Below, one piece after another: positions 6,799 through 37,525 of a stretch of 49,537 nucleotides of DNA. Each line of letters begins with the position of its first letter. Positions within the stretch are counted from its first letter, which is position 1. The stretch comes from Succinivibrio dextrinosolvens DSM 3072. GTDB taxonomy: Bacteria > Pseudomonadota > Gammaproteobacteria > Enterobacterales > Succinivibrionaceae. The position numbers and the translations under genes are program-made. The stretch spans positions 1-49,537 of the forward strand of contig NZ_FUXX01000015.1 in assembly GCF_900167015.1 (NCBI RefSeq), given 5' to 3'. Under the pieces are notes generated by a model. The model was not told the DNA's origin. It ran no database searches and worked only from the letters and a program-made list of their open reading frames with translations.

Positions 6799-7944
6799 GT
6801 GGGAATTTTAGCTGGAAAACTTTGGCTTCTGCTGTTTTCGACACTGATGCTGATGCCAATGTTATATAACAACATAAAAACTGAAGGCAGAACTCTCGGT
6901 GTTCATGCAATTGCGATTATTTCTGTATTTTTTACAATGCTCATGCGAGTCATTGTAGTATCAGTGTCCTGTTTCAATTTCGATTACTTAAATCCGTATA
7001 TTTTCGTTCTGATCTGGCAGCTGAGCATTCTTGTTGCCATGGTGGCCGTTTTCTATCTGGTTTTAAACGAGCTCAAAGAGAAGTTTTTAAGATACTCCAA
7101 TACCAATGACTGGCGCTATATTGTTCCTGGGCTTTTTGAAGCAGCACTTCTGGTTCTGTTTAATTTCCACTCCATGCTCATGGATGACAAACGCGAAGTC
7201 ATTGATGCGGCAACCTCTGTAAGTCTTTATTTTATTGTTAACTTCTATGTAATTGTCGGTGCCTGGCTGTGCTACAAGTCCTATCTTTACAATCTTGATT
7301 TTGACATCAAGTATATTGCCAGAAAACACTTTTTCTATTATCTGGTTTTAGGTATTGCTCTGTTTGTACAGCAGATTGTATTTGATGACGTAGAGGTTGG
7401 CTTTTCTCTTGCAGCCTTCCTGTTCTTCAACTATATGACCAGATCACGTACTCTGATTTCACAGGATCCTCTTTCAGGGGTTAACAACCGTGTAAGCTTC
7501 AGCAAATACATCAATAATGTATTCATTAACAGAGATCATTCCGGTGCATATATTGTTTTCATTGATATTGACCATTTCAAGCAGATCAATGATACCTACG
7601 GCCATATTGAGGGTGATGAGGCTATCTCCCTTGTTGGCAAGACCTTAAAGAGTATCGCCGGTGAGCATAATGCCTTTGTGGCCAGAATGGGCGGTGATGA
7701 GTTTGTGCTGATTACTCAGACTCAGAATGAGGAGGATGTTCAGAGAATCATTCAGAGCATCTCCTTTGAGCTTGAGGAGCGACTCATTTTCTCTGATAAG
7801 AAGTATGATGTTTCTGTAAGCTGCGGCTATGTCTATGCCAAACCAAACTCAAAGAATATCAAGGAGCTGGTTTCAAAGGCAGACAAGCAGATGTACAAGG
7901 AAAAACTGAAGAAAAAGGGGAACCCGTCAGATGCTGTCGTTTAG
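6799..7944 (+). CDS. membrane diguanylate cyclase (GGDEF), first of three
   Basis: A 381-aa protein predicted to make cyclic di-GMP from GTP. About 210 residues of hydrophobic membrane helices precede a C-terminal GGDEF domain beginning at SQDPLSGVNNR. The active-site loop RMGGDEF (GGDEF at residues 298-302) and the metal-binding FIDIDHFKQINDTYGH segment are intact. The inhibitory I-site RxxD is absent: the position before the loop reads GEHN. The start is GTG with ACAGGA 7 nt upstream. The next gene overlaps by 14 nt. The N-terminal membrane region matches no sensor family I can name. Confidence 0.9.
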   Translation: MGILAGKLWLLLFSTLMLMPMLYNNIKTEGRTLGVHAIAIISVFFTMLMRVIVVSVSCFNFDYLNPYIFVLIWQLSILVAMVAVFYLVLNELKEKFLRYSNTNDWRYIVPGLFEAALLVLFNFHSMLMDDKREVIDAATSVSLYFIVNFYVIVGAWLCYKSYLYNLDFDIKYIARKHFFYYLVLGIALFVQQIVFDDVEVGFSLAAFLFFNYMTRSRTLISQDPLSGVNNRVSFSKYINNVFINRDHSGAYIVFIDIDHFKQINDTYGHIEGDEAISLVGKTLKSIAGEHNAFVARMGGDEFVLITQTQNEEDVQRIIQSISFELEERLIFSDKKYDVSVSCGYVYAKPNSKNIKELVSKADKQMYKEKLKKKGNPSDAVV

Positions 7945-9161: not shown

Positions 9162-10400
9162 ATGCAGTTTGGATTGGATTTTCTGTCTTTAGACAGGTCG
9201 TATCATTTTTTCTATGGTCACTCGATCATATACCTTGTGCTGGCTGCTTTCTTTGTTATCAGCAGAATCAAGTACAACGAGAGATCCAACCGTACCTCAA
9301 ATACCTACGTTATATCAAAAGTCTCAAATCTCCTGCTTTTGCAGTGTCTGGCATTAGGTCTGTACTCTGTTCTTAATGTCCTTATCTATGATTTCGGTTT
9401 TCTGTCCTATTCCATATTAGATAGAATCTATCTGATTCTCACTTTCTGTATTCTGTTTATAAACAGTATCTGTCCGTACTATCTGTTTATTGTAATTCGT
9501 AAGCAGATACGCAGTATCGGTACCTTTCAGGGAATAATGAACAGAGCGGCCTTTATGCTTGTTAGTCTGTTCTGTATTGTATATCTTGTATTTGTCCTAA
9601 AATTTATCTTTAATTCAGATGAAATAATGACAAACTCAACTGGCAGTGTTTTATTTAAGATTGTCATCTTCCTGTCTCTATCTCAGTTTCTGTGTTTCCT
9701 TCTGACTATAAAGGATGTTCATCTCTTTGTATCTGAGCTTCTGCACGGTGCTTTCCTATCAAAGAGAGCTGCTCTGTTCGGTCTTGTTCTTTTTGTATAC
9801 GGTCCAATGCTGCTTTGGCCTCTGTCCATCATATATCTTCTTCCGATCTTCTTTATTTCATTGGTATCCTTTTTATTTGTAGTTCATATGGTGTCACAGT
9901 CACGTGCTGTTTCAAGAGATTTTCTAACCGGCATGAACAACCGAAATGAGCTTTATCGATACCTATCAAGACTATTTGAGAAGGATGACGATTTAACTCC
10001 GGCACTTAATATCATTTTCATCGATATCAACAAGTTTAAGAGTATCAATGATACCTTTGGTCATTCACAGGGCGATAAGGCTTTAATCTGCATGGCAAAC
10101 TGTCTGCGTCAGTCAGCCTTCTCCAAAGACTGTTTCTTAAGCCGCTATGCCGGTGATGAATTCATTATTGTCCTAAGAGAGAGTGGCGAGAATACTGTTC
10201 AGAAGTTTATCGATACTTTAAATCAGAAGATTAAGCAGGCCAATGATACCAATACAGATCCTTACCGTCTGTCCGTTGCAATCGGTTCTGTAAGCTACTC
10301 TGAGGAATACGATTCTGTTGAAAAGTTTATTGAAGCTGCCGACAGAAAGATGTATGACAGAAAGGCAGATTCCTCAAGATCTGCTCCATCTGTCATGTAG
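9162..10400 (+). CDS. membrane diguanylate cyclase (AGDEF variant), third of three
   Basis: A 412-aa protein with the same layout as its two upstream neighbours: a multi-helix membrane N-terminus, then a GGDEF domain from SRDFLTGMNNRNELYRYLSR. The active loop is RYAGDEF (residues 330-334 AGDEF); A/SGDEF variants are commonly active. The metal site FIDINKFKSINDTFGHSQGD is present. No RxxD I-site is seen (FSKD occupies the position). It starts 13 nt after the previous gene behind a GAAGAG ribosome site. The closeness of domain start sequences in genes two and three suggests local duplication. Confidence 0.9.
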   Translation: MQFGLDFLSLDRSYHFFYGHSIIYLVLAAFFVISRIKYNERSNRTSNTYVISKVSNLLLLQCLALGLYSVLNVLIYDFGFLSYSILDRIYLILTFCILFINSICPYYLFIVIRKQIRSIGTFQGIMNRAAFMLVSLFCIVYLVFVLKFIFNSDEIMTNSTGSVLFKIVIFLSLSQFLCFLLTIKDVHLFVSELLHGAFLSKRAALFGLVLFVYGPMLLWPLSIIYLLPIFFISLVSFLFVVHMVSQSRAVSRDFLTGMNNRNELYRYLSRLFEKDDDLTPALNIIFIDINKFKSINDTFGHSQGDKALICMANCLRQSAFSKDCFLSRYAGDEFIIVLRESGENTVQKFIDTLNQKIKQANDTNTDPYRLSVAIGSVSYSEEYDSVEKFIEAADRKMYDRKADSSRSAPSVM

Positions 10401-24173: not shown

Positions 24174-24992
24174 TTAACTTCTCAGAGTTGCAGCCTTCAT
24201 GCTTCTTACATACTCTTCAAGCTTTGAGAACATAAGTGGCAGACCATGAAGATTCTCCTCAATGATCTTCACACAGGCAGAACCCGCAATCGCGCCTTCA
24301 GCTCCGATTTCAATTGCCTTTTTAACATGCTCAGGTGTGGAGATTCCAAAGCCCAGTACAGGAGCAGCACCGCCAAGTTCCTTAATCTTCTCAATCACTC
24401 TTACAGGTTTTCCGAAGGTGTTCTCTGTACCGGTAATACCATAACGTGATAATACATAGGTATAGCCCTTAGAATGTCTTGAGATGGTCTCAAGAATTTC
24501 ATCTGATGCATTTGGAGGGGCAATCAGGACTGTATTGATACCAGCATCCTTTGCTGCCTGTTCAAAGTCACCTGAGGTATGAAGCATGTTGCTTGGAATA
24601 TCCGGAATCAGTACGGCATCAATACCTGCTGCGGCAGCATCCTCAAAGAACTTTCTGATACCGCGGGCAACTACAACATTTGCGTAGACAAGAATGCTGA
24701 TAGGAATTTCATCATCCACACGGCGGAAGTCTTTTATAACTTCAAAGAAATCGTCTGTGGTTGCTCCTGAGTTTAAGGCACGCTTGTCAGCATTCTGGAT
24801 AATAGGACCATCAGCACAAGGGTCAGAGAAAGGAAAACCAAGCTCCAGTGCATCTGCACCGCCTTTTAAAAGGCTCTTTAAAATCTCAAGTGAGGTTGCC
24901 TTGTCAGGATCACACAGGGTAACAAAAGGCATGAAGGCGCCTTCATTACGTTCCTTAAGCTTTGCAAATCTCTTTTCAAAACGGTTGTTCAT
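24174..24992 (-). CDS. trpA: tryptophan synthase alpha subunit
   Basis: A 272-aa TIM-barrel subunit that cleaves indole-3-glycerol phosphate to indole and glyceraldehyde 3-phosphate. The active-site Glu is in FMPFVTLCDP-to-ALELGFPFSDPCADGP, with the catalytic Asp in GIDAVLIPDIP. The phosphate-binding GFGIST and SACVKII segments are present. It starts 9 nt after trpB and is the last gene of the trpD-CF-B-A unit. Confidence 0.96.
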   Translation of the reverse strand: MNNRFEKRFAKLKERNEGAFMPFVTLCDPDKATSLEILKSLLKGGADALELGFPFSDPCADGPIIQNADKRALNSGATTDDFFEVIKDFRRVDDEIPISILVYANVVVARGIRKFFEDAAAAGIDAVLIPDIPSNMLHTSGDFEQAAKDAGINTVLIAPPNASDEILETISRHSKGYTYVLSRYGITGTENTFGKPVRVIEKIKELGGAAPVLGFGISTPEHVKKAIEIGAEGAIAGSACVKIIEENLHGLPLMFSKLEEYVRSMKAATLRS

Positions 24993-25001
24993 AGTTTCTC
25001 C

Positions 25002-26231
25002 TTATTTTGTAACCTTCAGTGGGGCAGTAGAGATTCCGCTTGAGGATATACAGCCTTTCTGTTCCAGAATGTTTGATACGTTGAAGATGTCCTTATCACC
25101 GCGACCTGAGATATTAACCACCAGAGTCTGCTCCTTATCAGGATTCTGTCTCATAAGTCTTAAGGCAAAAGCCAGTGCATGAGATGACTCTAAGGCAGGA
25201 ATAATACCTTCCTTCTGTGAAAGCTCTACGAATGCATCCAGTGCGTCATCGTCGGTGGCACCAACGTAGGTAACACGACCGGTTTCACTGAGATATGCAT
25301 GCTGAGGTCCTACAGATGGGAAATCAAGACCGGCTGAGATTGAATAGGACTCGTTAATCTGACCATCCTTTGTCTGAAGATTCTTTGAGTAGGCTCCAAA
25401 GAAGATTCCATCATCACCGCGGGCCAGGGTACCGCCGTGCTTTGGTGTTTCAATACCAAGACCATAAGGCTCAACACCGTATAGAGGAACATCGGTATCT
25501 AAAAAGTCGGTAAAGACACCGATAGCGTTTGAGCCGCCGCCTACACAGGCAATACAGGCATCAGGAAGTTTGCCGGTTTCCTCGATAATCTGCTTGTGGA
25601 TCTCCTCGCCGATAATCTTCTGGAACTCACGGACGATGGTTGGGAATGGATGTGGACCTGCTGCTGTACCAATCATATAGTGGGTGTTTTCAAAGTTTGC
25701 CGCATAGTCTCGAAGAGCCTCGTTGCAGGCCTCCTTCAAAGTTGCAGCTCCTACAGATACAGGTACAACCTCAGCTCCCATAAGCTTCATACGAAATACG
25801 TTAGGCTTCTGTCTTTCTGTATCTACAGCGCCCATATAGATTCGGCACTTGAAACCTAAAAGAGCACAGATAAGAGCGGTTGCCACACCGTGCTGTCCCG
25901 CACCGGTCTCAGCGATGATTCTTGTTTTGCCCATACGCTTTGCTAAAAGAGCCTGTCCTAATACCTGATTGGTCTTATGGGCACCGCCGTGAAGCAGATC
26001 CTCACGCTTTAGAAAGATTTTTGTCTTGGTGCCTTTGGTAAGGTTTCTGCACAGAGTAAGTGGGGTAGGACGACCTGCATATTTTTTCAGAAGATCAGAT
26101 AATTCCTGACGAAACTCAGGATCCTCTCTGCATTCTACAAAGGTCTTCTCAAGCTCGTCTAAAGCTGGGATTAAAACCTCTGGAACATACTGTCCACCGT
26201 ATTTTCCAAAAAATGGATTTAAAATAGTCAT
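25002..26231 (-). CDS. trpB: tryptophan synthase beta subunit
   Basis: A 409-aa PLP enzyme that joins indole and serine to make tryptophan. The PLP lysine lies in [19 protein letters not shown], the phosphate-binding loop is [10 protein letters not shown], and the N-terminus [20 protein letters not shown] is the family signature. Full length for TrpB. It forms the alpha2-beta2 complex with the trpA product encoded next to it. About 30 nt separate it from trpCF. Confidence 0.97.
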
Positions 26232-26261: not shown

Positions 26262-27680
26262 TTAGTATTCGTTGATGGTCTTAAAGATTTCGTTAATAAG
26301 CTCTGTATCCTTAATACCTTTAACCTTTTCCAGCTTAGAATTCAAATCCAGACCTAAAAAGCCTTGTTTTAGGGCAATCTCTACATTGTCAGGACCAATA
26401 CCGCCGGATAAGAGAATCTTTTCATGATTTACTGATTTTGGAATTGAGTTCCAGTCAAAGCTTGAACCAGAACCAGGGGAGGCTGAATCAAGAATGAAGA
26501 GATCGCTTAGTTCATCGTACTTCTCAATATTGGCAAAATCCTCTGCACTCTTTACATTGATGGCTTTGATAATCTTGATATCAGGAAGTGCCTTATGCAG
26601 CTTTTCAATTAACTCTGTGCTTTCATGTCCGTGCAGCTGAATGTAGGAGAGGCCGACCTCCTTTGCTGTCTTTACCATTACCTCAAGCTCTTCATCCACA
26701 AAGACACCTGCAAACTTTAAGGCGCCTTTATAGTCGGCTGTTATCTCCTTTGCCTTATCAAGGGTTACATAGCGAGGAGATTTTTTAGCAAAGATAAGAC
26801 CGCCGATGCTTACATTGTTCTTTGCACAGCTCTCAACCGCTTCCTTTGTGGTAAGACCGCAGACCTTGTTTAAACCGTAGAGCATGGATTTTGCCTTGAA
26901 CTCTACATCTGAATCTCCTGTTAGAGCTGAGCCGATAAGAAAATTGCTGATTGGCTTTAGGGAGGTTAAATCACTGTGCTTATTGATCCCTGACTCAGAT
27001 ACCACTCTTACATCCTTATCAAACAGGGTAGAAAGCTCTCTTGCGTTGCTGAGATCGATTTTTAGTGTTCTTAAATCGCGGTTATTGATACCTACAATCT
27101 CAATTTTATGTTCTCTGCAGTAAAGTGCATCTGCTCTGCTGTCAACCTCGGTTAAAACATCAAGTCCAAGCTTATGGGCATACTCGTATAGGTCCTCATA
27201 GGTCTCCTTTGAAAGCACACTCAGCATTAAAAGTACTGCATCGGCGCCTGCAATGTAGGCCTCATCAAGCTGTTCACGGCAGATGATAAAGTCTTTGCAC
27301 AGAACAGGAAGAGAAGTTCTCTCCTTTACAAACTTAAGATATTCTAAAGAGCCTTTGAAGAAATGCTTTTCACACAGAACAGAAATCGCACTGGCATGTT
27401 TCTCATAGCAGTTTATAAGCTTATCAAGATCAAAATCCCTGCAGAAATCACCTAAGGTAGGGGATGACTGCTTGCATTCTAGGATAAAGTTTCTGCCATC
27501 AGCGCTTAAGGCTTCCTTAAATGATACCCGTGGTAGAGTACGCTCTCCTGTAACTTTTATCTCCTTGACATCCTCAACCTTGCGGTTAATGATGGTTGCA
27601 AGTACGGTACCCTCAATTTCACTGTAGTTAAGACCAGGATATGCTTTAGCCTGACTTGTCAGTGGTTCTGTGTGTAGCAT
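26262..27680 (-). CDS. trpCF: bifunctional indole-3-glycerol phosphate synthase / phosphoribosylanthranilate isomerase
   Basis: A 472-aa fusion of two TIM barrels, the arrangement typical of enteric-type gammaproteobacteria. The TrpC half (to about residue 260) has FILECKQSSPTLGDFC, VLCKDFIICREQLDEAYIAG and EVVGINNRDL-like IVGINNRDLRTLKID. The TrpF half starts near VCGLTTKEAVESC and has FAGVFVDEE, YIQLHGHES and LDSASPGSG. It carries out the PRA isomerisation and the ring-closing step, between trpD and trpB in the pathway and in the operon. AAGGAT precedes the ATG. Confidence 0.96.
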   Translation of the reverse strand: MLHTEPLTSQAKAYPGLNYSEIEGTVLATIINRKVEDVKEIKVTGERTLPRVSFKEALSADGRNFILECKQSSPTLGDFCRDFDLDKLINCYEKHASAISVLCEKHFFKGSLEYLKFVKERTSLPVLCKDFIICREQLDEAYIAGADAVLLMLSVLSKETYEDLYEYAHKLGLDVLTEVDSRADALYCREHKIEIVGINNRDLRTLKIDLSNARELSTLFDKDVRVVSESGINKHSDLTSLKPISNFLIGSALTGDSDVEFKAKSMLYGLNKVCGLTTKEAVESCAKNNVSIGGLIFAKKSPRYVTLDKAKEITADYKGALKFAGVFVDEELEVMVKTAKEVGLSYIQLHGHESTELIEKLHKALPDIKIIKAINVKSAEDFANIEKYDELSDLFILDSASPGSGSSFDWNSIPKSVNHEKILLSGGIGPDNVEIALKQGFLGLDLNSKLEKVKGIKDTELINEIFKTINEY

Positions 27681-27693
27681 CTTTTATCCTTAA

Positions 27694-28710
27694 TTATGAG
27701 TTTGACAGTCTGGTGATGGTATTTAGTTTCTCAATGGCACGACCTGAACGGATTGTGTCATATGCCATTTCATAGCCGTCTTTGAAGTTGTTTACCTTCT
27801 CGGCAAGATAAAGCATTGCTGATACGTTGGCTGCAACTACTGCGTTGTGAGCATCAGTGCCTTTGCCTTCTAGAACTGCACGGGCTGAGCGCGCATTTTC
27901 CTCTGGTGTGCCACCTACAAGGTCTTCCTGTCTGAAGTTACCCTTGATACCGAAATCGTCATTGGTCAGAACATAGTTCTTAATAGAGCCGTCCTTTTTA
28001 AGCTCTGATACATGAGTCTCACCGAAGATTGAAATCTCATCCATGCCGTTGCCGTTGATTACCATAGCTCTCTGCACACCGGTAAGCTTCAGACTTCTGG
28101 CAAGAGTTTCCAGAAGATTTACGTCATAGCAGCCTAAAAGCTCATAGTTGACACGTGCAGGATTGGTCAGAGGTCCTAGGATATTGAAGATGGTTGAGGT
28201 GCCTAATGCCTTGCGGACTGGAGCTGCATACTTCATTCCAGTGTGGTATTTCTGTGCAAAGAAGAATGCAAAGCCTTCCTCTTCAAGACATTTTCTGGTG
28301 ATATCTGCTTCGGCACGGATGTTATAGCCAAGCTCAGTTAGAACATCTGAAGCACCTGATTTTGATGAAACTGCTGTATTACCATGCTTTGCCACATGCA
28401 GTCCTAAGGTTGCACATACAAAGGCGGAAATGGTTGAAATGTTGATTGTCTTTAAGCGGTCTCCACCGGTTCCGACGATTTCGCCGGTATCAATACTGCG
28501 TTCACGCTCGAATGGAAGAGCAGAATCAATCATTGCAGTTGCAGCACCGCCGATTTCGTCTGCTGTATAGCCGTTCATCTTCAGAGAGGTTAGTAGAGAA
28601 CCGAATACAATCGGATCAAGCTTACCTGCAAAGATATCTTTAAAGATTAAGTTAGTCTCAGTAAAAGAAAGATCTTCTTTTGCATATAACTTTTCTAGTA
28701 ATGAGTTCAT
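27694..28710 (-). CDS. trpD: anthranilate phosphoribosyltransferase
   Basis: A 338-aa enzyme transferring phosphoribose to anthranilate. The PRPP site GTGGDRLKTINIST, KHGNTAVSSKSGASDVL and the DE motif GNGMDEISI are present. I place the start at the ATG with AGGAG 7 nt upstream; a longer frame back to 28782 would begin inside the attenuator hairpin and is rejected. TrpD stands alone, not fused to TrpG as in E. coli. It is the first gene after the second leader peptide, and trpCF follows 13 nt downstream. Confidence 0.96.
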   Translation of the reverse strand: MNSLLEKLYAKEDLSFTETNLIFKDIFAGKLDPIVFGSLLTSLKMNGYTADEIGGAATAMIDSALPFERERSIDTGEIVGTGGDRLKTINISTISAFVCATLGLHVAKHGNTAVSSKSGASDVLTELGYNIRAEADITRKCLEEEGFAFFFAQKYHTGMKYAAPVRKALGTSTIFNILGPLTNPARVNYELLGCYDVNLLETLARSLKLTGVQRAMVINGNGMDEISIFGETHVSELKKDGSIKNYVLTNDDFGIKGNFRQEDLVGGTPEENARSARAVLEGKGTDAHNAVVAANVSAMLYLAEKVNNFKDGYEMAYDTIRSGRAIEKLNTITRLSNS

Positions 28711-28748
28711 AATCAGACTCCTAATGTGAATTTCAAACTGTATATACG

Positions 28749-28778
28749 AAAAAACCCGCAATTTTACTTGCGGGTTTT
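28749..28778 (-). terminator. trpD attenuator terminator
   Basis: AAAACCCGCAA/TTGCGGGTTTT, an 11-bp perfect stem with loop TTTTAC, followed by T's on the minus strand. It lies between the second leader peptide and trpD. Upstream GCGGGG can pair either with CCTCGC at the leader-peptide end or with the CCCGC arm, giving the 1:2 pause and 2:3 antiterminator options of a classical trp attenuator. Confidence 0.88.
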
Positions 28779-28817
28779 TCATCTAAATCTTTTGTAAGTA
28801 CAAACACAAAATCCCCG

Positions 28818-28874
28818 CTATGTTGCGAGGTGCCACCATGATGCCTTAAATGTAATCTGTACTGAATGTGTCAT
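28818..28874 (-). CDS. trpL: second trp leader peptide (in front of trpD)
   Basis: An 18-aa ORF, MTHSVQITFKASWWHLAT, with tandem Trp codons at residues 13-14. GGAAGAG precedes the ATG by about 7 nt. The reading frame ends just before the GCGGGG arm of the attenuator, so a ribosome stalled at Trp-Trp would cover arm 1 and free arm 2 to block termination, the known TrpL mechanism. Possible promoter elements TTTACT and TAATAT lie upstream on the minus strand around 28915-28940. Confidence 0.88.
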   Translation of the reverse strand: MTHSVQITFKASWWHLAT

Positions 28875-29102
28875 TTTTATCTCTTCCAAAAAAACTCTAT
28901 GTTTTTATATTAAACAATTTTCTGTAAAAGTAAATGTGAATTTTATAATAACCATAAAATTTTTTGATTTGCACTAAAAAATTGCAGATATTCTCTTTTT
29001 TAGTGCGAAGAAATTGAAAAGGTCTGTATGTTTTATATCTGTGAAGGATTATCTTTTGAAAGAATTATAATGGGTTAAAGCTTATGAATAGGGAGATACG
29101 GA

Positions 29103-29909
29103 ATGAAACTGACGGTTCTTTGTGACAACAATACCTACATCGATCAGTACTATCTGGGAGAGCCGGCTCTTTGTTTTTACATTGAGGATGATAACAGAAG
29201 AATTCTGCTTGATACCGGTTATTCGGATGTATTTATGAATAATGCCTCTCTGATGAATATCGATCTCAATCAGTTAACCGATATTGTCATATCCCATGGT
29301 CATAATGATCATACAAGAGGACTTAAGTTTCTTTTACCAGTCTTAAAAAAGGAAATGCTCTTTACATGCCATCCTCAATGCTTTAATCAAAAATATGATG
29401 GCAATGAATATATCGGAGCTCCATTTTCAAAAGAACAGCTCTCATCCTTTGTAAATTACAGAGAAACTGCAAATCCTGTTTGTATAACCTCAAGACTTGT
29501 ATATCTTGGTCAGATCCCAAGAAAGACCGATTTTGAGGCAAAAAATCCTATAGGCTGTGAAGTTGTTGATGGGGAGCTCCAACCAGATTATCTTCTGGAT
29601 GACTCTGCTCTGGTTTATAAATCAGAGAAAGGTTTATTTGTTATTACTGGCTGCTCTCACAGTGGTATCTGCAACATCATAGAATATGCCAAAAGCGTCT
29701 GTGATGACGACAGAATTATAGGCTGTATAGGCGGTTTTCATATCTTTGATGATGAGGTGCAGATTCAGAAGACTCTTGATTATTTCTGCCGCAATAACAT
29801 TCAGAAGCTGTATCCATGTCATTGTGTATCACTCAAAGCAAAATGTGAGTTTATGAAGAGTCTGAATGTTGAAGAGGTTGGTGTAGGCTTGAAGATAGAG
29901 GTTCTTTAG
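29103..29909 (+). CDS. metallo-beta-lactamase-fold hydrolase
   Basis: A 268-aa protein of the COG1237 group (dihydropterin-RFA-P synthase-like / Tm0207-like MBL proteins). Seen: HGHNDHTRG (metal site HxHxDH) at about residues 60-68, GCSHSGICNI at about 185, GGFH at about 207 and the late CHC. It should bind two metal ions and hydrolyse an ester or similar substrate; the substrate is unknown. Its ribosome site AGGGAG is good. It is transcribed opposite to the trp genes around it and sits between the two halves of the trp pathway. Confidence 0.85.
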   Translation: MKLTVLCDNNTYIDQYYLGEPALCFYIEDDNRRILLDTGYSDVFMNNASLMNIDLNQLTDIVISHGHNDHTRGLKFLLPVLKKEMLFTCHPQCFNQKYDGNEYIGAPFSKEQLSSFVNYRETANPVCITSRLVYLGQIPRKTDFEAKNPIGCEVVDGELQPDYLLDDSALVYKSEKGLFVITGCSHSGICNIIEYAKSVCDDDRIIGCIGGFHIFDDEVQIQKTLDYFCRNNIQKLYPCHCVSLKAKCEFMKSLNVEEVGVGLKIEVL

Positions 29910-29926
29910 CTGTGTTCATCTAATAT

Positions 29927-29953
29927 GGTAGTGAACTAGCGCAGCTCACTACC
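29927..29953. terminator. hairpin between convergent genes
   Basis: GGTAGTGA/TCACTACC with an 11-nt loop lies between the MBL gene and the convergent AAA-ATPase gene. The T-runs are weak on both sides, so termination strength is uncertain. Confidence 0.55.
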
Positions 29954-29967
29954 TTGTAGCTTAAGTC

Positions 29968-31587
29968 TTAATCTACTATTCTCCATTGTGCAACAGCTTT
30001 GTCTTCGGCATTGATAACTACAGCCATTCTGTTAAGTTCTTTTAGAGGAAGAATTTCTCCGTAGCGTTTATCTTTTGCCTGTTCGATTGCTTTATCAAGA
30101 AGCTCTTTTTCCGTATCTCTTGATTTTGCAAGCTTGAATTCAAAGACAAATCTTTTTGCAGAAAGTTCTACAACAATGTCTGCTCTGCCGTCAGAACTTA
30201 TAGCTTCTCTTTGCGCGTTGATACCTGATAGGCTTAGTGTGTAGTAAATAATGTCTCTGCAGTAATGCTCTGTTTTAAATGCTTCCTTGTCATCATAACC
30301 AAAAGTGTTTAATGCTGCACTGAAGGTTTTGATTAAAGACTCAAAGTCTGATTTCTTAAAATTAGTTATTAAAGCTGATGAGAAGTCATGGAAGATATCA
30401 TCATCCAAAGGATTGTCTCTAACTTCTCTGTAATATAGCTGTATTAGAGAAGACTGTACTTCCAGATTAGGAGGAACCAGAAAGAGACTCTCTCCTCCTA
30501 ATTCATTCTTCTCAGATCTTACTGATAGATATCCAGTCTGATAAAGAAGACTTATTGGTGTGACATCAAAGTAATCATAGAATTCACTCAGTGTTTGAGG
30601 CCCACATTTTGTCTTCTGAAGTGTTTGTAATGGGGTATTCTGAATATTCTTTACGTATTTTGCTATCAGTGTAGGATAGGAACCGCCTGTTTCATACCAG
30701 AAGTTTTTGAATCCCTGTTCTGGGGTGTAAAGAAAGTTCAGAACTGACCATGGATTATGCAGCATAGTGTCATTATCAACATGGAATCTGTATCCGTCAT
30801 AATGAGCCTTAATCTGGGCATAACACTCATCTTTATCGATATTAAGTGTATTGGCTGCATTCTCAACATATTCATCAAAGTACTGGTGCATGTCATCGTC
30901 TGTATAGCCAAGTAATGGGGCAAACTTGCTTTCAAGACTTAGGTCTCTTAGGTTATTCATCTGTGAAAATACAGAGGTCTTTGCAAATCGGCCAACTCCG
31001 GTAATAAAGATAAATCTCATATCACCGGTCAGACCTTTGATGGCTCCAAATAAGCCCTGTAGATACAGTCTGTATGATTCAAATAATTCCTTGTTACCCA
31101 AAGAGTGTGTTAGTGGGTAGTCATATTCGTCAATTAAAAGAACATATTCTGATGGAGCTGATTCAACTAGAGTCTTTAAATTTAAACCTGCACTACGTTC
31201 TTTATAATCATCTGGCAGATTAACCCCATCACGTTTTGCACTGTCTGCAAGGACGTAAGTAATCTGGTTATTTAGTTCATTTTTATTCTCAAAAGAAAGT
31301 GCGGAAAAATCCAGGTGAATAACTTTATATGTTTTTCCTTGTTCTGCTTCATCCCATAGTTTTTCAATCTTTAGACCTTTGAAAAACTCGGTACCGTGAG
31401 AAAAAAGTGATTCTAGCGTAGATACAAGCAGAGATTTACCGAAGCGACGTGGTCTTGATAGAAAATTAGGTCCATCCAGATAAGCAAACTCAAAAATCAG
31501 ATCAGTGTGGTCAACGTAAATCTGATTCTTTCTTCGAATATCTTCAAAACTGTTTTTAGCTCGAGGAAGTCTTCTAATATCTACCAT
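29968..31587 (-). CDS. AAA-ATPase-like protein with C-terminal PD-(D/E)XK nuclease domain
   Basis: A 539-aa protein of the AAA-ATPase_like / DUF1703 family, abundant as accessory genes in gut anaerobes. The N-terminal domain has a Walker A SRPRRFGKSLLVSTL near residue 42 and Walker B YVLLIDEYDYPL near 147. The C-terminal 120 residues have DGRADIVVELSAKRFVFEFKLAK, the D...E-x-K nuclease site. The function is not established; mobile-element-like spread is suspected. It sits between trpG and trpD on the same strand as both, splitting the pathway genes. Confidence 0.87.
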   Translation of the reverse strand: MVDIRRLPRAKNSFEDIRRKNQIYVDHTDLIFEFAYLDGPNFLSRPRRFGKSLLVSTLESLFSHGTEFFKGLKIEKLWDEAEQGKTYKVIHLDFSALSFENKNELNNQITYVLADSAKRDGVNLPDDYKERSAGLNLKTLVESAPSEYVLLIDEYDYPLTHSLGNKELFESYRLYLQGLFGAIKGLTGDMRFIFITGVGRFAKTSVFSQMNNLRDLSLESKFAPLLGYTDDDMHQYFDEYVENAANTLNIDKDECYAQIKAHYDGYRFHVDNDTMLHNPWSVLNFLYTPEQGFKNFWYETGGSYPTLIAKYVKNIQNTPLQTLQKTKCGPQTLSEFYDYFDVTPISLLYQTGYLSVRSEKNELGGESLFLVPPNLEVQSSLIQLYYREVRDNPLDDDIFHDFSSALITNFKKSDFESLIKTFSAALNTFGYDDKEAFKTEHYCRDIIYYTLSLSGINAQREAISSDGRADIVVELSAKRFVFEFKLAKSRDTEKELLDKAIEQAKDKRYGEILPLKELNRMAVVINAEDKAVAQWRIVD

Positions 31588-31947
31588 TTCTATATTCTCT
31601 TTGAGATTCTATATGCTTACCTTACATTCTACTATATATGTTCAGTCTTGTTGTACTGTGTTTGTCAATTATGTAGGTAAGATTGTTTATTCTTCAACGA
31701 GCGATGGAAAATACCGAGTTTTGTTTCCTGCTTTTTTAACTGTCAGCATTCCTTTATGACACATTTCAGTTAATAAGCCATACGCTTTATTAAGGCTTAG
31801 AGAGGTTTCATATTTTTCTTTATTGGACATTGGGAGGATACCTTATTTGTTTATTCTTTTATTATTATAAAGAGAAAGAGAGAGAAAGAAATAAAGGAAA
31901 CCACCAGCACCACAGAGAAACTGTAGCAACTGGTGTTTTGTGATAAT
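31588..31947. other. spacer between AAA-ATPase gene and trpG
   Basis: 360 bases. It carries a 47-codon minus-strand frame that looks like a winged-helix remnant (31687-31830) and the trpG terminator-like repeat CACCAG/CTGGTG (about 31900-31935). The rest is AT-rich with a purine-rich tract (GAGAAAGAGAGAGAAAG). Confidence 0.5.
31687..31830 (-). pseudogene. short winged-helix-like ORF, possible gene remnant
   Basis: A 47-codon frame, MSNKEKYETSLSLNKAYG to FPSLVEE. The part LTEMCHKGMLTVKKAGNKTR looks like the recognition-helix-plus-wing end of a winged-helix domain. There is no good ribosome site (CCTCCCA precedes the ATG). It may be the broken end of a larger DNA-binding gene left when the AAA-ATPase gene was acquired, or chance. 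Confidence 0.3.
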
Positions 31948-32535
31948 TTACTCTGTTAGCGTTGAAATCGCATTCCTCAGAAGATTTCTTCCAAAGGTTG
32001 TCATGATGGATTCAGGATGGAACTGGAATCCAAGCACGTTGTACTTCTCTGAGTACAGTGACATGCACATGCCGTCATATTGAGCGAGTATCTCAACATC
32101 AGTAGGCAAATCCTCAACCACTAAAGAGTGGTATCTTGCAATTTTCAGTGGATTTGGTAGATCTTTAAAGCACAGCTTATCAGTATGCTGCATCATTGAG
32201 CTCTTGCCATGTACAATCACAGGTGCCTTAACAACCTTTCCGCCAAGAACCTCTCCTAGTGCCTGATGACCAAGACAGATTCCAAGCATAGGGTATTTAC
32301 CCAGACTTTCTTTAATAATAGGCAGAAGATTATTTGCATCCTTTGGTGCTGAAGGACCAGGGGAAAGCATAATGATGACCTTGCCGGTCTCGCTCTGTTT
32401 CTTTGCCTGTTCCATAATGGTTGCAACACTTACATCATTACGGAATACCATGACATTGTTACCAAGAACCTTTAGCTCATCTACTAGGTTGTATGAAAAG
32501 GAATCAAAATTATCGATGAATATAATGTTTGCCAT
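31948..32535 (-). CDS. trpG: anthranilate synthase glutamine amidotransferase component
   Basis: A 195-aa class I glutamine amidotransferase supplying ammonia to TrpE. The nucleophile is in GICLGHQALGEVLGGK and the His/Glu pair in FQFHPES; the N-terminus FIDNFDSFSYNLVDEL is the family signature. The start is the ATG with AAGGAG 7 nt upstream, 4 nt after the trpE stop; the ribosome site overlaps that stop, indicating coupling. Unlike E. coli it is not fused to TrpD. It is the last gene of the first trp unit. Confidence 0.95.
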   Translation of the reverse strand: MANIIFIDNFDSFSYNLVDELKVLGNNVMVFRNDVSVATIMEQAKKQSETGKVIIMLSPGPSAPKDANNLLPIIKESLGKYPMLGICLGHQALGEVLGGKVVKAPVIVHGKSSMMQHTDKLCFKDLPNPLKIARYHSLVVEDLPTDVEILAQYDGMCMSLYSEKYNVLGFQFHPESIMTTFGRNLLRNAISTLTE

Positions 32536-32539
32536 GATG

Positions 32540-34042
32540 CTACTCCTTATCAGCAAGAGCTAAGGCACATAAAACTGATTTAGCCTTGTTTACTGTTTCC
32601 TGGCATTCTGCTTTGATGTCTGAATCGAATACTACACCGCAGCCGGCCTGTACATATGCGGTATTCCCCTTAACAAAGGCACTTCTGATTGCAATACAGG
32701 TATCCATAGAGCCATCCTCTGAGAGAATACCTATAACACCGCCGTATGAACCTCGTTTCTTTCCCTCGTATTTATAGATAAGCTCATGTGCCTTGATTTT
32801 AGGTGCACCAGAAAGTGTTCCCATATTCATACAGGCACAGTAGGCGTGAAGAGCATCTAGATCGTCTCTTAACACCGCATGAACATCTGAAACAAGGTGC
32901 ATTACAGACTGATATTTATCAATATGCAGCATGTTATCAACATAACGTGAGCCGCATTTGCTGATTCTAGCAAGATCGTTTCGTGCTAAATCAACCAGCA
33001 TCAGATGCTCTGCAACCTCTTTGGTATCGGTTCTAAGCTCAAGTTCAATACGGCTGTCCAGTTCCTTGTTGATAGTACCGTCTTCGTTAAGACCGCGAGC
33101 GCGGGTTCCTGCGATAGGACTTATTGAAACTCGTCTTTGTTCAGCCTCAAATCTTACGGCATACTCAGGACTTGCTCCGAAGATTATGTATTCAGGATCT
33201 TTGATGTAGTACATGTAAGGGGATGGGTTGAGTTTCTTTAAATAAGAGTAGGCAAGTAGAGGATCGTTACATCTGTGTTTAAATGTTCTGGATGGAACCA
33301 CCTGGAAGGCATCACCATCGATAATATGCTGTTTTACCTTGGCAACAATCTCACCGAATTTCTCATCATCAAGATCAGGTTCAATCTTAGGTGTTACTTT
33401 TTTGATTACCAGAGCATCTTCCTGATTGAAGTCGTCGATTTTATCTCTCAGATCAAGTGTCTCAAAAGCGATTTCCTTGTATGAATCCTCATCAAATACA
33501 TAGGCATCAATCTGAGTCTGCTGCTTTTGGTGATTTGATCTGATAGCGATATCAAATACGTAGAATCCGTAATCTGGGCAAGGATTTTCTCCTTTCTTAA
33601 GATCACCTATGTATTCAAAGTTGTTGATATAGTCAAAGGAAATCAGACCGCCTATAAAGATATTCTTGCAGCCTTTGATACTTACAATTGTCTTTCTTAA
33701 GACTTCGAAGGGATTTGGTGCTTTTAAACGGCTCTCCTCGTCCATCTCGTGATCTGGTCTTGAGTAGGCAACTGTTAAAGAATCCTCTGAAGCGGTAAGA
33801 TTAAGCTCATTTGCAATTAGCTTTAAAAGAGCCTTGCCATTCCTGTTTAAGGCCTGAGCCTTGACCTTGAGATCCTCACAGGTAATCTTAAGCGCAGCTG
33901 AAACACCAATCAGAGACTGTACTCCGCTTTTATCAATAATCTCAGCACTTTCATAAAGAATGGTGTTGTCCCTGTGACAGTATTCCTTATAAAACAGGTG
34001 AGCTTCCTTAAGATATTTTGTATCAAACGCTATCGACTTCAT
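32540..34042 (-). CDS. trpE: anthranilate synthase component I
   Basis: A 500-aa enzyme converting chorismate to anthranilate with ammonia from TrpG. The N-terminal half has the allosteric LYESAE-type motif where tryptophan binds (E. coli LLESA). The C-terminal catalytic half has FQVVPSRTF, SPYMYYIKDPEYIIFGASPE, PIAGTRARG, LVDLARNDLARI and TLSGAPKIKA. I choose the ATG (34042) with AAGG 7 nt upstream; a GTG two codons earlier is the alternative. It is the first enzyme gene after the first leader peptide and attenuator. Confidence 0.96.
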   Translation of the reverse strand: MKSIAFDTKYLKEAHLFYKEYCHRDNTILYESAEIIDKSGVQSLIGVSAALKITCEDLKVKAQALNRNGKALLKLIANELNLTASEDSLTVAYSRPDHEMDEESRLKAPNPFEVLRKTIVSIKGCKNIFIGGLISFDYINNFEYIGDLKKGENPCPDYGFYVFDIAIRSNHQKQQTQIDAYVFDEDSYKEIAFETLDLRDKIDDFNQEDALVIKKVTPKIEPDLDDEKFGEIVAKVKQHIIDGDAFQVVPSRTFKHRCNDPLLAYSYLKKLNPSPYMYYIKDPEYIIFGASPEYAVRFEAEQRRVSISPIAGTRARGLNEDGTINKELDSRIELELRTDTKEVAEHLMLVDLARNDLARISKCGSRYVDNMLHIDKYQSVMHLVSDVHAVLRDDLDALHAYCACMNMGTLSGAPKIKAHELIYKYEGKKRGSYGGVIGILSEDGSMDTCIAIRSAFVKGNTAYVQAGCGVVFDSDIKAECQETVNKAKSVLCALALADKE

Positions 34043-34096
34043 TTTCACACCTTATATTTTGAAAATTCGCTCTGAAATTTATGACCCTTATATACG

Positions 34097-34119
34097 AAAA
34101 AACCCGCTATTACGCGGGT
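34097..34119 (-). terminator. trpE attenuator terminator
   Basis: On the minus strand ACCCGC-GTAATA-GCGGGT followed by six T. It lies between the first leader peptide and trpE. The upstream GCGGGT (34142-34147) can pair with the ACCCGC arm as antiterminator or with CCTGC at the end of the leader ORF. Confidence 0.88.
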
Positions 34120-34149
34120 CCTCTATAAGCACAACAGTTCTACCCGCAT

Positions 34150-34194
34150 TTAAGCAGGGCACCACCATGAACCGTTGAAACTTCTAATCATCAT
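34150..34194 (-). CDS. trpL: trp leader peptide (in front of trpE)
   Basis: A 14-aa ORF, MMIRSFNGSWWCPA, with tandem Trp codons at residues 10-11 and GAGGA 5-6 nt before the ATG. It directly precedes the attenuator hairpins ahead of trpE and so is the classical regulatory leader peptide. The sequence TCATGGTGG covering Ser-Trp-Trp is identical to that in the second leader. A possible minus-strand promoter is TTTACA (34262-34267) with TAATAG (34239-34244) at 17-nt spacing. Confidence 0.92.
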   Translation of the reverse strand: MMIRSFNGSWWCPA

Positions 34195-34923: not shown

Positions 34924-36105
34924 ATGGGCTCATATTTGAATACAGGATTTAGAGCCTTCGAATTCTCGTTGAATTCTGAAATCTATATTGATAAAAGTGA
35001 AATCATTTCATTACTGAATAGATTTCTAAATACAAGACAACGATATATATGTATCAGTCGACCTAGACGTTTTGGTAAATCTTTTACTGCTGAGATGCTT
35101 AGTGCTTATTACTCCAAAGGTGTGGACAGTTCTTTTCTGTTTGATAATCTGAGAATTTCAAAATCTGATTCCTATAAAAAACATCTAAACAAATACAATA
35201 CTATCTTTATTGATATGCAGCAGTTTTTGACCAATGCTGATAAAGATGTTTCTAAGATGCTGTCTAATCTGGAGTCTGAAATAAAAAATGAATTAAAGAC
35301 TCTTTACCCTGAACAGGATATTTCTGAGGAAAGAAAGCTTAATCAGATCTTATCTGATATATATAGCAAGGAAACAGAAAAACTTGGTAAAAGTAACGGT
35401 TTTGTCTTCATCATAGATGAATGGGACTGCATCATGAGAGAAAAGCAGACTGATGCAGACGGAATAAAGCTATATCTTGATTATTTACGAGCTTTATTTA
35501 AAGACCGCTCCTATGTATCTCTTGCCTATATGACAGGTATTCTTCCTATCAAGAAATACGGAACTCACAGTGCTCTTAATATGTTTAGAGAATTCTCTAT
35601 GACAGAGCCTGGTGAATATGCTCCTTTTGTTGGATTTACAGAGGAGGATGTTAAGGAGTTATGCAGTCAATTCAAAGCAGACTTTTCTTCAATGAAAAAA
35701 TGGTATGACGGTTATATTTTTGATAACGATCTGCACCTTTACAATCCTAATTCCGTAGTCGAGTCTCTTTTAAGAAAGAAGTTTTTAAGTTACTGGTCTC
35801 AGACTGAAACCTTTGAGAGCCTAAGCCGATATATGGATCTGAACGTGGAAGGTTTGCGTGACGGTATAGTTTCTCTTATTGCGGGTAATGAAATATTAGT
35901 AAATTCAGAAACATTTCAAAATGATATGACAACCTTTAACAATAGGGATGATGTTTTTACACTTCTGATTCATTTAGGTTATCTGGCCATAAATCCTGAT
36001 TCTAAGATTAGGGCTTTTGATAATGACAAATCATTATTAGTAGTCCATATTCCGAATAATGAAATAAGAAAGGAATTTAATAACATCATGAAGAACTGGA
36101 GTTAA
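34924..36105 (+). CDS. AAA-ATPase-like protein lacking the nuclease domain
   Basis: A 393-aa member of the same broad family as the gene at 29968-31587. Walker A is SRPRRFGKSFTAEML (near residue 43) and Walker B FVFIIDEWDCIM (near 160). The typical middle region with KWYDGYIFDNDLHLYNPNSV is present. It stops after NEIRKEFNNIMKNWS, where family members usually continue for another 130-150 residues with a PD-(D/E)XK nuclease. So this copy is truncated, or it is a natural ATPase-only form. GAGGAG precedes the ATG. The ISL3 element begins 47 nt after the stop and did not cause the truncation. Confidence 0.8.
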   Translation: MGSYLNTGFRAFEFSLNSEIYIDKSEIISLLNRFLNTRQRYICISRPRRFGKSFTAEMLSAYYSKGVDSSFLFDNLRISKSDSYKKHLNKYNTIFIDMQQFLTNADKDVSKMLSNLESEIKNELKTLYPEQDISEERKLNQILSDIYSKETEKLGKSNGFVFIIDEWDCIMREKQTDADGIKLYLDYLRALFKDRSYVSLAYMTGILPIKKYGTHSALNMFREFSMTEPGEYAPFVGFTEEDVKELCSQFKADFSSMKKWYDGYIFDNDLHLYNPNSVVESLLRKKFLSYWSQTETFESLSRYMDLNVEGLRDGIVSLIAGNEILVNSETFQNDMTTFNNRDDVFTLLIHLGYLAINPDSKIRAFDNDKSLLVVHIPNNEIRKEFNNIMKNWS

Positions 36106-36274: not shown

Positions 36275-37525
36275 ATGTCTTGTATTGTATCTGATTTTTT
36301 ATCTAAAAACTTCTTTCCTGGCTTCATGATTACAAATATTTCTTTTTCTGAAGTGTCTGACAGGGATATTACCATCCAGCTGGAACCTAAAGAACCTCCA
36401 GTATGTCCACACTGTGGGAGCCATAACGTGGTTGTCCATGAATATAGACAGAGAGTCATCAAAGAAGAAAAGCTGCTAGGCTGCTTCGTTACTCTTGTGA
36501 TCACCTACCGTACAATCAAATGCAATTACTGTGAGTGTAAATACGCTACAGAAGACATACCGTTCCTTTCCGATTCATTTAGAGTAACCAAAAGAGCAGA
36601 AGAATCTGTCATAGAGGATTTAGAGATGGCTGGCTCAATCAAGGATACCTCCAGGAGAACAGGATTGTCTTGGGATGTATGCAAGAATATTCATAAGAGA
36701 TATCTACAGAGTACCATTTCATTCTCTCTGGGAAGTTCTGAGTTTTTAGCCATTGACGAGTTTTCAATCAAGAAAGGACACAAGTACGGTACGGTTGTCG
36801 CAGACATAGTAACCAAACGTGTTATCTGGGTCTGTGAAGGCAAATCAAATACAGATGTCAGCCGATTCTTTGAACTGTGTGGAAAGATAGGCTGCCAGCA
36901 GATAAAGGCTGTAGCTATGGACCAGAACGCTGGCTTTGCATCGCTTGTAAGCAGATACTGCTCTAAGGCTCTTGTTGTATATGACTTGTTCCATATGGTC
37001 TACAACTTCGGCAGACTTGTCATCAGTGCCATAAGAATAAGACTTGCCAACTACTACAGAGACCATGGCGATGAGGCAGGATATCAGCTGCTTAAAGGTT
37101 CAAGATTCCTTCTGCTTACACGTAATTCTCGATTATCTGAAGAAAAGAAACTAAGACTTGATTCTATCCTCAGCTATTACAGTGAACTGAACAAGGCAAA
37201 TGAACTAAAGGAACTGTTACCAGAAGTATATGAAGCTAACTCTAAGGATGAAGCAGAACGATTATGGACTGAATGGGTAAGGCTGGCAATGTCCTCTGGT
37301 GTTGACGAGATTATGAAATTTGCTAAGAGTCAGAATGACCACTACAGAGATGGCATTACCAATGCGGGTATCTACCATATTAGGACAAGTGTACTGGAAG
37401 GTATAAACAATAAGATAAAGGTTCTAAAGCGTGTAGCCTATGGGTACAGAGATTTAGATTATTTCTTTTTAAGAATAAGAAGTGCATTCAGAGGAAAGTT
37501 TACTCCAATCGCGACGATTGGATAG
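36275..37525 (+). CDS. ISL3-family transposase
   Basis: A 416-aa DDE transposase. The N-terminal zinc-binding region has CPHCGSHNVVVHEYRQR and CNYCECKYA; an HTH-like segment follows (SIKDTSRRTGLSWDVCKNIH). The catalytic residues lie in LAIDEFSIKKGHKYGTVV, AMDQNAGFASLV and LEGINNKIKVLKRVAYGYRD. Length and motifs are complete, so the enzyme is probably active. Its expression should be limited by the hairpin just before the ATG. A strong hairpin terminator follows. Confidence 0.95.
   Translation: MSCIVSDFLSKNFFPGFMITNISFSEVSDRDITIQLEPKEPPVCPHCGSHNVVVHEYRQRVIKEEKLLGCFVTLVITYRTIKCNYCECKYATEDIPFLSDSFRVTKRAEESVIEDLEMAGSIKDTSRRTGLSWDVCKNIHKRYLQSTISFSLGSSEFLAIDEFSIKKGHKYGTVVADIVTKRVIWVCEGKSNTDVSRFFELCGKIGCQQIKAVAMDQNAGFASLVSRYCSKALVVYDLFHMVYNFGRLVISAIRIRLANYYRDHGDEAGYQLLKGSRFLLLTRNSRLSEEKKLRLDSILSYYSELNKANELKELLPEVYEANSKDEAERLWTEWVRLAMSSGVDEIMKFAKSQNDHYRDGITNAGIYHIRTSVLEGINNKIKVLKRVAYGYRDLDYFFLRIRSAFRGKFTPIATIG

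Follow-up and report, generated by a model that had tools for sequence, protein, structure and literature searches.

The genome of Succinivibrio dextrinosolvens DSM 3072 (Gammaproteobacteria, Aeromonadales, Succinivibrionaceae) encodes the tryptophan (Trp) biosynthesis pathway in two separate units, trpE-trpG and trpD-trpCF-trpB-trpA, and each half-pathway appears to be headed by its own ribosome-mediated attenuator of the Escherichia coli trpL type. The attenuator before trpD is apparently older than the gene insertion that lies between the units and is tied to the late trp genes; the probability of this reading is put at roughly 85%. Both units are on the minus strand of a stretch of 49,537 nucleotides (nt) (contig NZ_FUXX01000015.1, positions 1 to 49,537, referred to here as the window), which is contig G000:C56 of a 2.67-Mb assembly of 104 contigs. 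Genes in the window were identified by Pfam. The units are approximately 3.2 kb apart with an opposite-strand gene in between, and each is preceded on the minus strand by a leader open reading frame (ORF) carrying tandem UGG codons and by a hairpin switch.

Anatomy of the two attenuators

The leader ORF of the trpEG unit (the E leader), MMIRSFNGSWWCPA, begins with an ATG at 34194, 152 nt before the trpE ATG at 34042, and its stop codon ends at 34150; TGAGGA lies upstream, and the Trp codons are at 34167-34162. The leader ORF of the trpDCFBA unit (the D leader), MTHSVQITFKASWWHLAT, begins with an ATG at 28874, 164 nt before the trpD ATG at 28710, and its stop codon ends at 28818; GGAAG lies upstream, and the Trp codons are at 28838-28833. 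Thus the two leader ORFs claimed in the original prediction, which had been made from the letters of the window alone, were found at 34150-34194 and 28818-28874, each lying before trp genes and carrying tandem Trp codons together with a ribosome site.

From Trp codons to T-run, the E attenuator occupies 34097-34167 and the D attenuator 28749-28838. Arms 1 to 4, read by eye, are at 34159-34154, 34147-34142, 34119-34114, and 34107-34102 in the E attenuator and at 28830-28825, 28818-28813, 28776-28770, and 28759-28753 in the D attenuator. In both, the 1:2 hairpin covers the end of the leader ORF, and the antiterminator and the terminator with its T-run exclude each other. When the elements were folded separately, the energies of the 1:2 hairpin, the terminator, and the antiterminator were -9.1, -13.5, and -13.7 kcal/mol for E and -9.9, -15.7, and -14.7 kcal/mol for D. 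The T-runs end at 34097 and 28749, exactly where the ends of short leader RNAs had been expected.

The folds were more stable than chance would provide, with a z-score of -4.76 for D (none of 200 shuffles equally stable) and -3.54 for E (1 of 200). In a further test, the 450-nt region upstream of each unit was subjected to 3000 dinucleotide shuffles. An ORF encoding adjacent Trp residues (WW) arose in 20 of the 3000 shuffles for E and 12 of the 3000 for D, and a WW leader combined with matching arms 2, 3, and 4 and a T-run arose in none for either unit. The proposed mutually exclusive hairpins ending in a T-run terminator therefore stood up at both sites, and a complete predicted Trp attenuator before each half-pathway is confirmed.

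If these elements function like other ribosome-mediated attenuators, a ribosome would stall on the tandem UGG codons and cover arm 1 when charged tRNA-Trp is scarce, arms 2 and 3 would pair, and the polymerase would read on. When charged tRNA-Trp is plentiful, arms 1:2 and 3:4 would form and transcription would stop at the T-run. The sequences show the anatomy, conservation, and tree placement, and we infer ribosome stalling, termination, antitermination, and a promoter for the second unit.

Conservation of the leaders

Forty-three leaders, all from searches for WW codons, were collected from the window's genome and its relatives. At least five pairs between arms 2 and 3, together with the 1:2 and 3:4 hairpins, were found by script in 42 of the 43; the exception was the E leader of G031, which had two arm 2-arm 3 pairs and in which the script misplaced arm 3. 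A covariance model and a covariation test were based on 26 of the 43 attenuators. Across these 26 sequences the named pairs held in 99.1% of 334 cells, and the covariation score was higher than in all 500 shuffles.

Searching the window's genome with the model gave two matches at an E-value of 0.01 or below, 34096-34167 and 28748-28838, which are the two leaders and are themselves in the model. No third attenuator was found at this threshold among the 82 of 1245 first-look candidates that were scored. Leaders held out of the model were matched at the expected trp places: the E leaders of G018 (1.5e-7) and G013 (3.4e-7), the D leaders of G072 (8.2e-8), G006 (4.5e-6), and G013 (5.5e-5), and, weakly, the E leaders of G031 (0.0014) and G072 (0.005). 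Fourteen regions with weaker matches in relatives (L213-L226) were inspected by script; 13 had neither a trp gene nor a WW leader, and the other (L215, in G026) carries trpBA.

Distribution of the D leader among the Succinivibrionaceae

The family was represented by 56 genomes, the window's among them, 50 of which contained TrpD and 50 of which contained a TrpE match. The trpD loci of 48 of the 50 were examined (all except G064 and G067), as were five (G041, G043, G045, G046, and G054) of the 24 genomes that represented the order's other families. WW or W.W ORFs were excluded if they had a GTG or TTG start, had no terminator, or lay inside trpG or further upstream; those set aside were at trpD in G011b, G022, G025, G034, G043, G045, G060, G061, G065, and G076, as extra ORFs in G012 and G013, and as extra ORFs upstream of trpE in G007, G045, and G046.

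Twenty-two genomes from four genera had a D leader: 14 of g1 (Succinivibrio), five of g4, one of g12, and two of g13. Distances between trpG and trpD, taken from the ends of BLAST matches, were 288-410 nt in eight of these genomes, with the D leader between the two genes (G004, G005, G006, G008, G009, G012, G013, and G030). Five D-leader genomes had distances of 1351-6157 nt (G000, G010, G014, G029, and G072), and the remaining nine had no trpG on the same piece as trpD; the halves were on different contigs in five g4 genomes. The contig of G018 ends 59 nt before trpD, so a D leader cannot be judged there. All 14 genomes of g5, g6, g7, g8, g10, and g11 had an E leader but lacked a D leader, and their trpG-trpD gap was 12-42 nt. 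Of the five genomes from other families, four had an E leader and none had a D leader.

Phylogeny and age of the second leader

The D-leader genomes, together with G007, the extra locus of G011, G018, and G031, which had no trpD match, formed a single group of 26 with support of 100 in a tree of the joined Trp proteins (44 taxa, 2169 columns). The history of the D leader fits a single gain followed by two losses. Because it is found in the eight genomes with contiguous clusters and marks a clade of four genera, the D leader is independent of the genes that interrupt the cluster, and this indicates that a second attenuator can precede the split of an operon rather than follow it. One of the eight is a doubtful case. 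G004 grouped with G000 and G011 (support 97) inside a group of G000, G004, G010, G011, and G014 (support 100), and since it has none of the insert genes and yet is nested among insert-bearing genomes, it may have lost the insert. The argument is thus carried by the other seven, which include G030 of another genus. On this view the D attenuator would go with the late trp genes of a single branch of the family, and it would not have been born with the insertion in the window.

The association with late genes was also seen in other genera. In six genomes of g2, g3, and g9 (G019, G020, G063, G064, G066, and G068) the model matched in front of a trpB-trpA pair (E-values of 1e-9 to 1e-12), each time with a WW leader ORF, and G026 had a weaker match before trpBA (2.2e-5), where no WW leader was found. 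TrpB from these pairs in the six was 70-74% identical to that of the window, compared with 54-56% for the TrpB of a divergent second trp operon present in five of the six. The divergent operon showed no WW leader ahead of either trpE or trpD in any of the ten genomes examined from g2, g3, and g9 (the trpE start being an estimate). In a tree of TrpB (62 taxa, with support read from the unrooted tree), the native-type TrpB of the six and of G026 joined the D-leader genomes, the leaderless loci, and G018 in a group of 31 with support of 100; the arrangement of the native-type proteins within it was not resolved, with support of 38 for the six together. Because native-type trpBA with a leader groups with the TrpB of D-leader genomes, the D-type leader seems to remain attached to the late trp genes even in genomes whose other pathway genes have been replaced.

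Several results weigh against the reading of two trpL-type attenuators, the second of them an old feature of the late genes. No Rfam family was found in the window at gathering score. Trp_leader (RF00513) remained under its cut-off of 41 bits, with 26.3 bits (E-value 0.037) at the D leader and 18.8 bits (E-value 3.4, which is chance level) at the E leader, and Thr_leader scored as high as Trp_leader at the D leader (26.4 bits). A consensus scan gave 15 promoter-like sites compared with 18.4 in shuffles, again chance level, no promoter signal before the D leader was significant, and a consensus terminator rule listed neither the E nor the D terminator. The WW feature is circular in the counts because the leaders were selected by it; three pairs were altered on both sides, and 42 of 500 shuffles had at least as many; and five of the seven terminator pairs were invariant across the 26 sequences. 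Lastly, two trpD loci of the clade, in G007 and on an additional trpD contig of G011 that may be a contaminant, have no D leader, the gaps being 59 and 75 nt. That these loci do without it could mean that the D leader has decayed and lost its function, but 22 genomes from four genera retain its Trp codons and the full set of arms, and related leaders stand before the native-type trpBA of six genomes from other genera, so that this explanation is highly improbable.

Relationship between the E and D leaders

The E and D leaders have the same layout, and in the window they match at 22 of 23 nt at the terminator and share TCATGGTGG. A common origin is likely, as judged from the layout. The original prediction had gone further, taking the similarity as the trace of a duplication that occurred when the operon was split and left both halves under Trp control. 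The similarity itself is there, and copying does happen: in G009, also a Succinivibrio, the two leaders are identical at 118 of 128 positions (92%), from before the ATG to past the terminator (in L041 at approximately 7220-7350 and 9585-9715). Because this identity ends just outside the leader ORF and the terminator, it suggests recent copying or gene conversion of the cassettes in G009.

The moment of duplication is another matter. The similarity in the window is small, and the excess seen within genomes depends on G009: in the 18 genomes with both leaders, own E-D pairs averaged 0.51 identity, above shuffled pairs (p = 0.0077), but this excess was lost when G009 was left out (17 genomes, p = 0.12). 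The comparison with relatives that had been proposed did turn up unsplit clusters, yet these, G009 among them, already carry the D leader, which is moreover present throughout the clade. A duplication coinciding with the split is therefore considered unlikely, and a second attenuator older than the insertion is the preferred reading.

Two more general patterns were rejected. The idea that the E and D leaders of a genome generally evolve in concert was dismissed since the signal was due to G009 alone, and separate E and D lineages were dismissed since a tree of 49 attenuators did not split E from D, with or without the E leader of G009. The E-D pair of G009, the only pair looked up in that tree, had support of 99.

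Regulation of the two units

None of the 56 family genomes had a TrpR repressor (PF01371) over the Pfam cut-off, although there were three matches below it (G079, G024, and G035); the controls, E. coli and B. subtilis, were both detected in this search. Because no TrpR passed the cut-off, Trp may act on transcription in the family mainly through attenuation, though a different regulator is also possible. Without a recognisable TrpR, the D attenuator would ensure that the late genes stay under Trp control at any distance from trpEG, and independent tuning of the two halves is plausible.

Where trpG and trpD are adjacent, the D attenuator would either start a second transcript or act as an internal checkpoint on the first. 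Four of the eight contiguous genomes had a terminator after trpG, with a strong hairpin and T-run in G004 and G030 and weaker ones in G006 and G013; no terminator was found by script between trpG and the D leader in the other four (G005, G008, G009, and G012). Serial action of the two attenuators would be possible in genomes that lack a terminator there. This raises an alternative for the contiguous relatives as a whole, in which one transcript from the trpE promoter would pass two serial Trp terminators, so that the response to Trp would be steeper for the late genes than for trpEG, the halves being separated only later by insertion in the window. The shared strand and gene order of the contiguous clusters agree with it as well, but the terminators after trpG in the other four genomes do not, nor do the opposite-strand gene between the halves in the window and the placement of the halves on different contigs in g4, and we regard it as possible but doubtful. 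In the window itself, a stable hairpin (-18.1 kcal/mol) with a poor T-run, TTTCCTTT, lies directly 3' of trpG at 31902-31935 on the minus strand.

A short motif also recurred near the leaders. In the 200 nt before them, TGCACCA on either strand was the commonest 7-mer with at least three G or C, found in 12 of 36 regions when four close genomes were left out; the maximum for shuffled 7-mers averaged 7.3 and was at most 11 in 100 shuffles, the motif having been chosen after looking. Motifs like TGCACCA recur before both leaders in relatives. A palindrome, GCACTAAAAAA-N14-TTTTTTAGTGC (spacing approximate), lies at 28971-29006 in the window, between the D leader and the MBL-fold gene described below, and is the only fit in the genome to GCACYAAAAN{8,20}TTTTRGTGC. 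The motif or palindrome is a possible candidate for the operator of a regulator.

Comparison with known systems

The trpL region of E. coli (RF00513) consists of a leader ORF with tandem Trp codons, arms pairing as 1:2, 2:3, and 3:4, and a T-run terminator, all upstream of trpE. The E leader of Succinivibrio has the same ORF, arms, T-run, and position before trpE. The differences are that Succinivibrio has a second copy before trpD, that its leaders are under the Rfam gathering score, and that no TrpR over the cut-off accompanies them.

In Pseudomonas putida, trpE and trpGDC are both reported to be under attenuation (Olekhnovich and Gussin 2001, as cited in PMC8297930). The window likewise contains a trp pathway in two separated units with one Trp attenuator apiece, but the pathway is cut as EG/DCFBA rather than E/GDC. 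Trp attenuation of split units is thus already reported from P. putida, and the EG/DCFBA version is new. Kagan and colleagues described split trp operons that are mainly EGDC and FBA (PMC2395257).

Sinorhizobium meliloti also coordinates split trp operons through a Trp attenuator. There the attenuator is only at trpE(G), and trpDC is reached in trans by rnTrpL, the RNA released by attenuation at trpE(G), which destabilises trpDC mRNA (PMC7298713), whereas each unit of the window has an attenuator in cis. With this precedent, a leader RNA or peptide might act in trans on the other unit, cis attenuation at trpD being secondary. This is very unlikely given that the second unit has its own complete switch, and nothing pointing to a trans target turned up, though no search for one was made. 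More than one leader ORF with attenuation on a single operon is also reported from Salmonella mgtCBR, but with another signal and with both ORFs in one leader region.

No account of trp attenuators in the Succinivibrionaceae was found in a literature whose subscription journals were mostly beyond reach, which is no proof of absence, and none of an attenuator between trpG and trpD was found in the literature on trp attenuators and split operons. Within the family, the arrangements form a natural series: in some genomes the genes are contiguous behind a single leader, in others there are two leaders and the genes are contiguous, interrupted, or dispersed, and in others again a leader precedes trpBA only. 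Since the whole series is found in genomes without TrpR over the Pfam cut-off, how regulation survives the break-up of an operon becomes directly testable. More tentatively, the Trp attenuator of this branch may be a self-contained cassette that is set before separate trp blocks, was recently copied in one genome, and stays with the late genes when the rest is replaced, with two in series in contiguous clusters making the response of the late genes to Trp steeper than that of the branch-point enzyme.

T-box leaders in divergent trp operons

Two of the genomes with native-type trpBA behind a ribosome-type Trp leader, G068 and G020, also had T-box leaders (RF00230, cut-off 93) upstream of the divergent trp operon, at L174:6660-6905 on the plus strand (103.4 bits) and L065:12797-13059 on the minus strand (95.8 bits), respectively. 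The specifier codon in both was UGG by reading of the alignment. None was found at gathering score at four other divergent trp operon loci, and at two of these none at an E-value of 0.1 or below. A 2013 survey limited T-boxes to Firmicutes, Actinobacteria, Chloroflexi, Thermus/Deinococcus, and Geobacter (PMC3766115).

Gene content of the locus

The trpEG unit consists of trpE, encoding anthranilate synthase component I (32540-34042, PF00425 and PF04715), and trpG, encoding the glutamine amidotransferase component (31948-32535, PF00117). The second unit contains trpD (27694-28710, PF00591 and PF02885), a trpCF fusion (26262-27680, PF00218 and PF00697), trpB (25002-26231, PF00291, named from its position and its relatives), and trpA (24174-24992, PF00290). 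Between the units, Pfam identified an AAA-ATPase_like/PDDEXK_9 gene (29968-31587, minus strand) and an MBL-fold hydrolase gene (29103-29909, plus strand). Both are in the same position in G011 and G014, and neither was found between trpG and trpD in G004.

The interval between trpG and trpD appears to be a hot spot for insertion (approximately 28900-31940 in the window; also L033 and L034). Other ORFs occupy it in G010 and G014, one of them TnpB-like by eye, and the window keeps a short stretch there corresponding to the terminal part of a longer ORF of G010 and G014. G004 has neither those ORFs nor that stretch. Two overlapping trpE pieces in the assembly of G010 (G010:C147 and G010:C95) had identities of 97% and 92%, as if two strains were present. 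The trp cluster of the window is adjoined by two plus-strand ORFs, one at 34924-36105 that resembles AAA-ATPase_like by eye and one at 36275-37525 that is transposase-like by eye.

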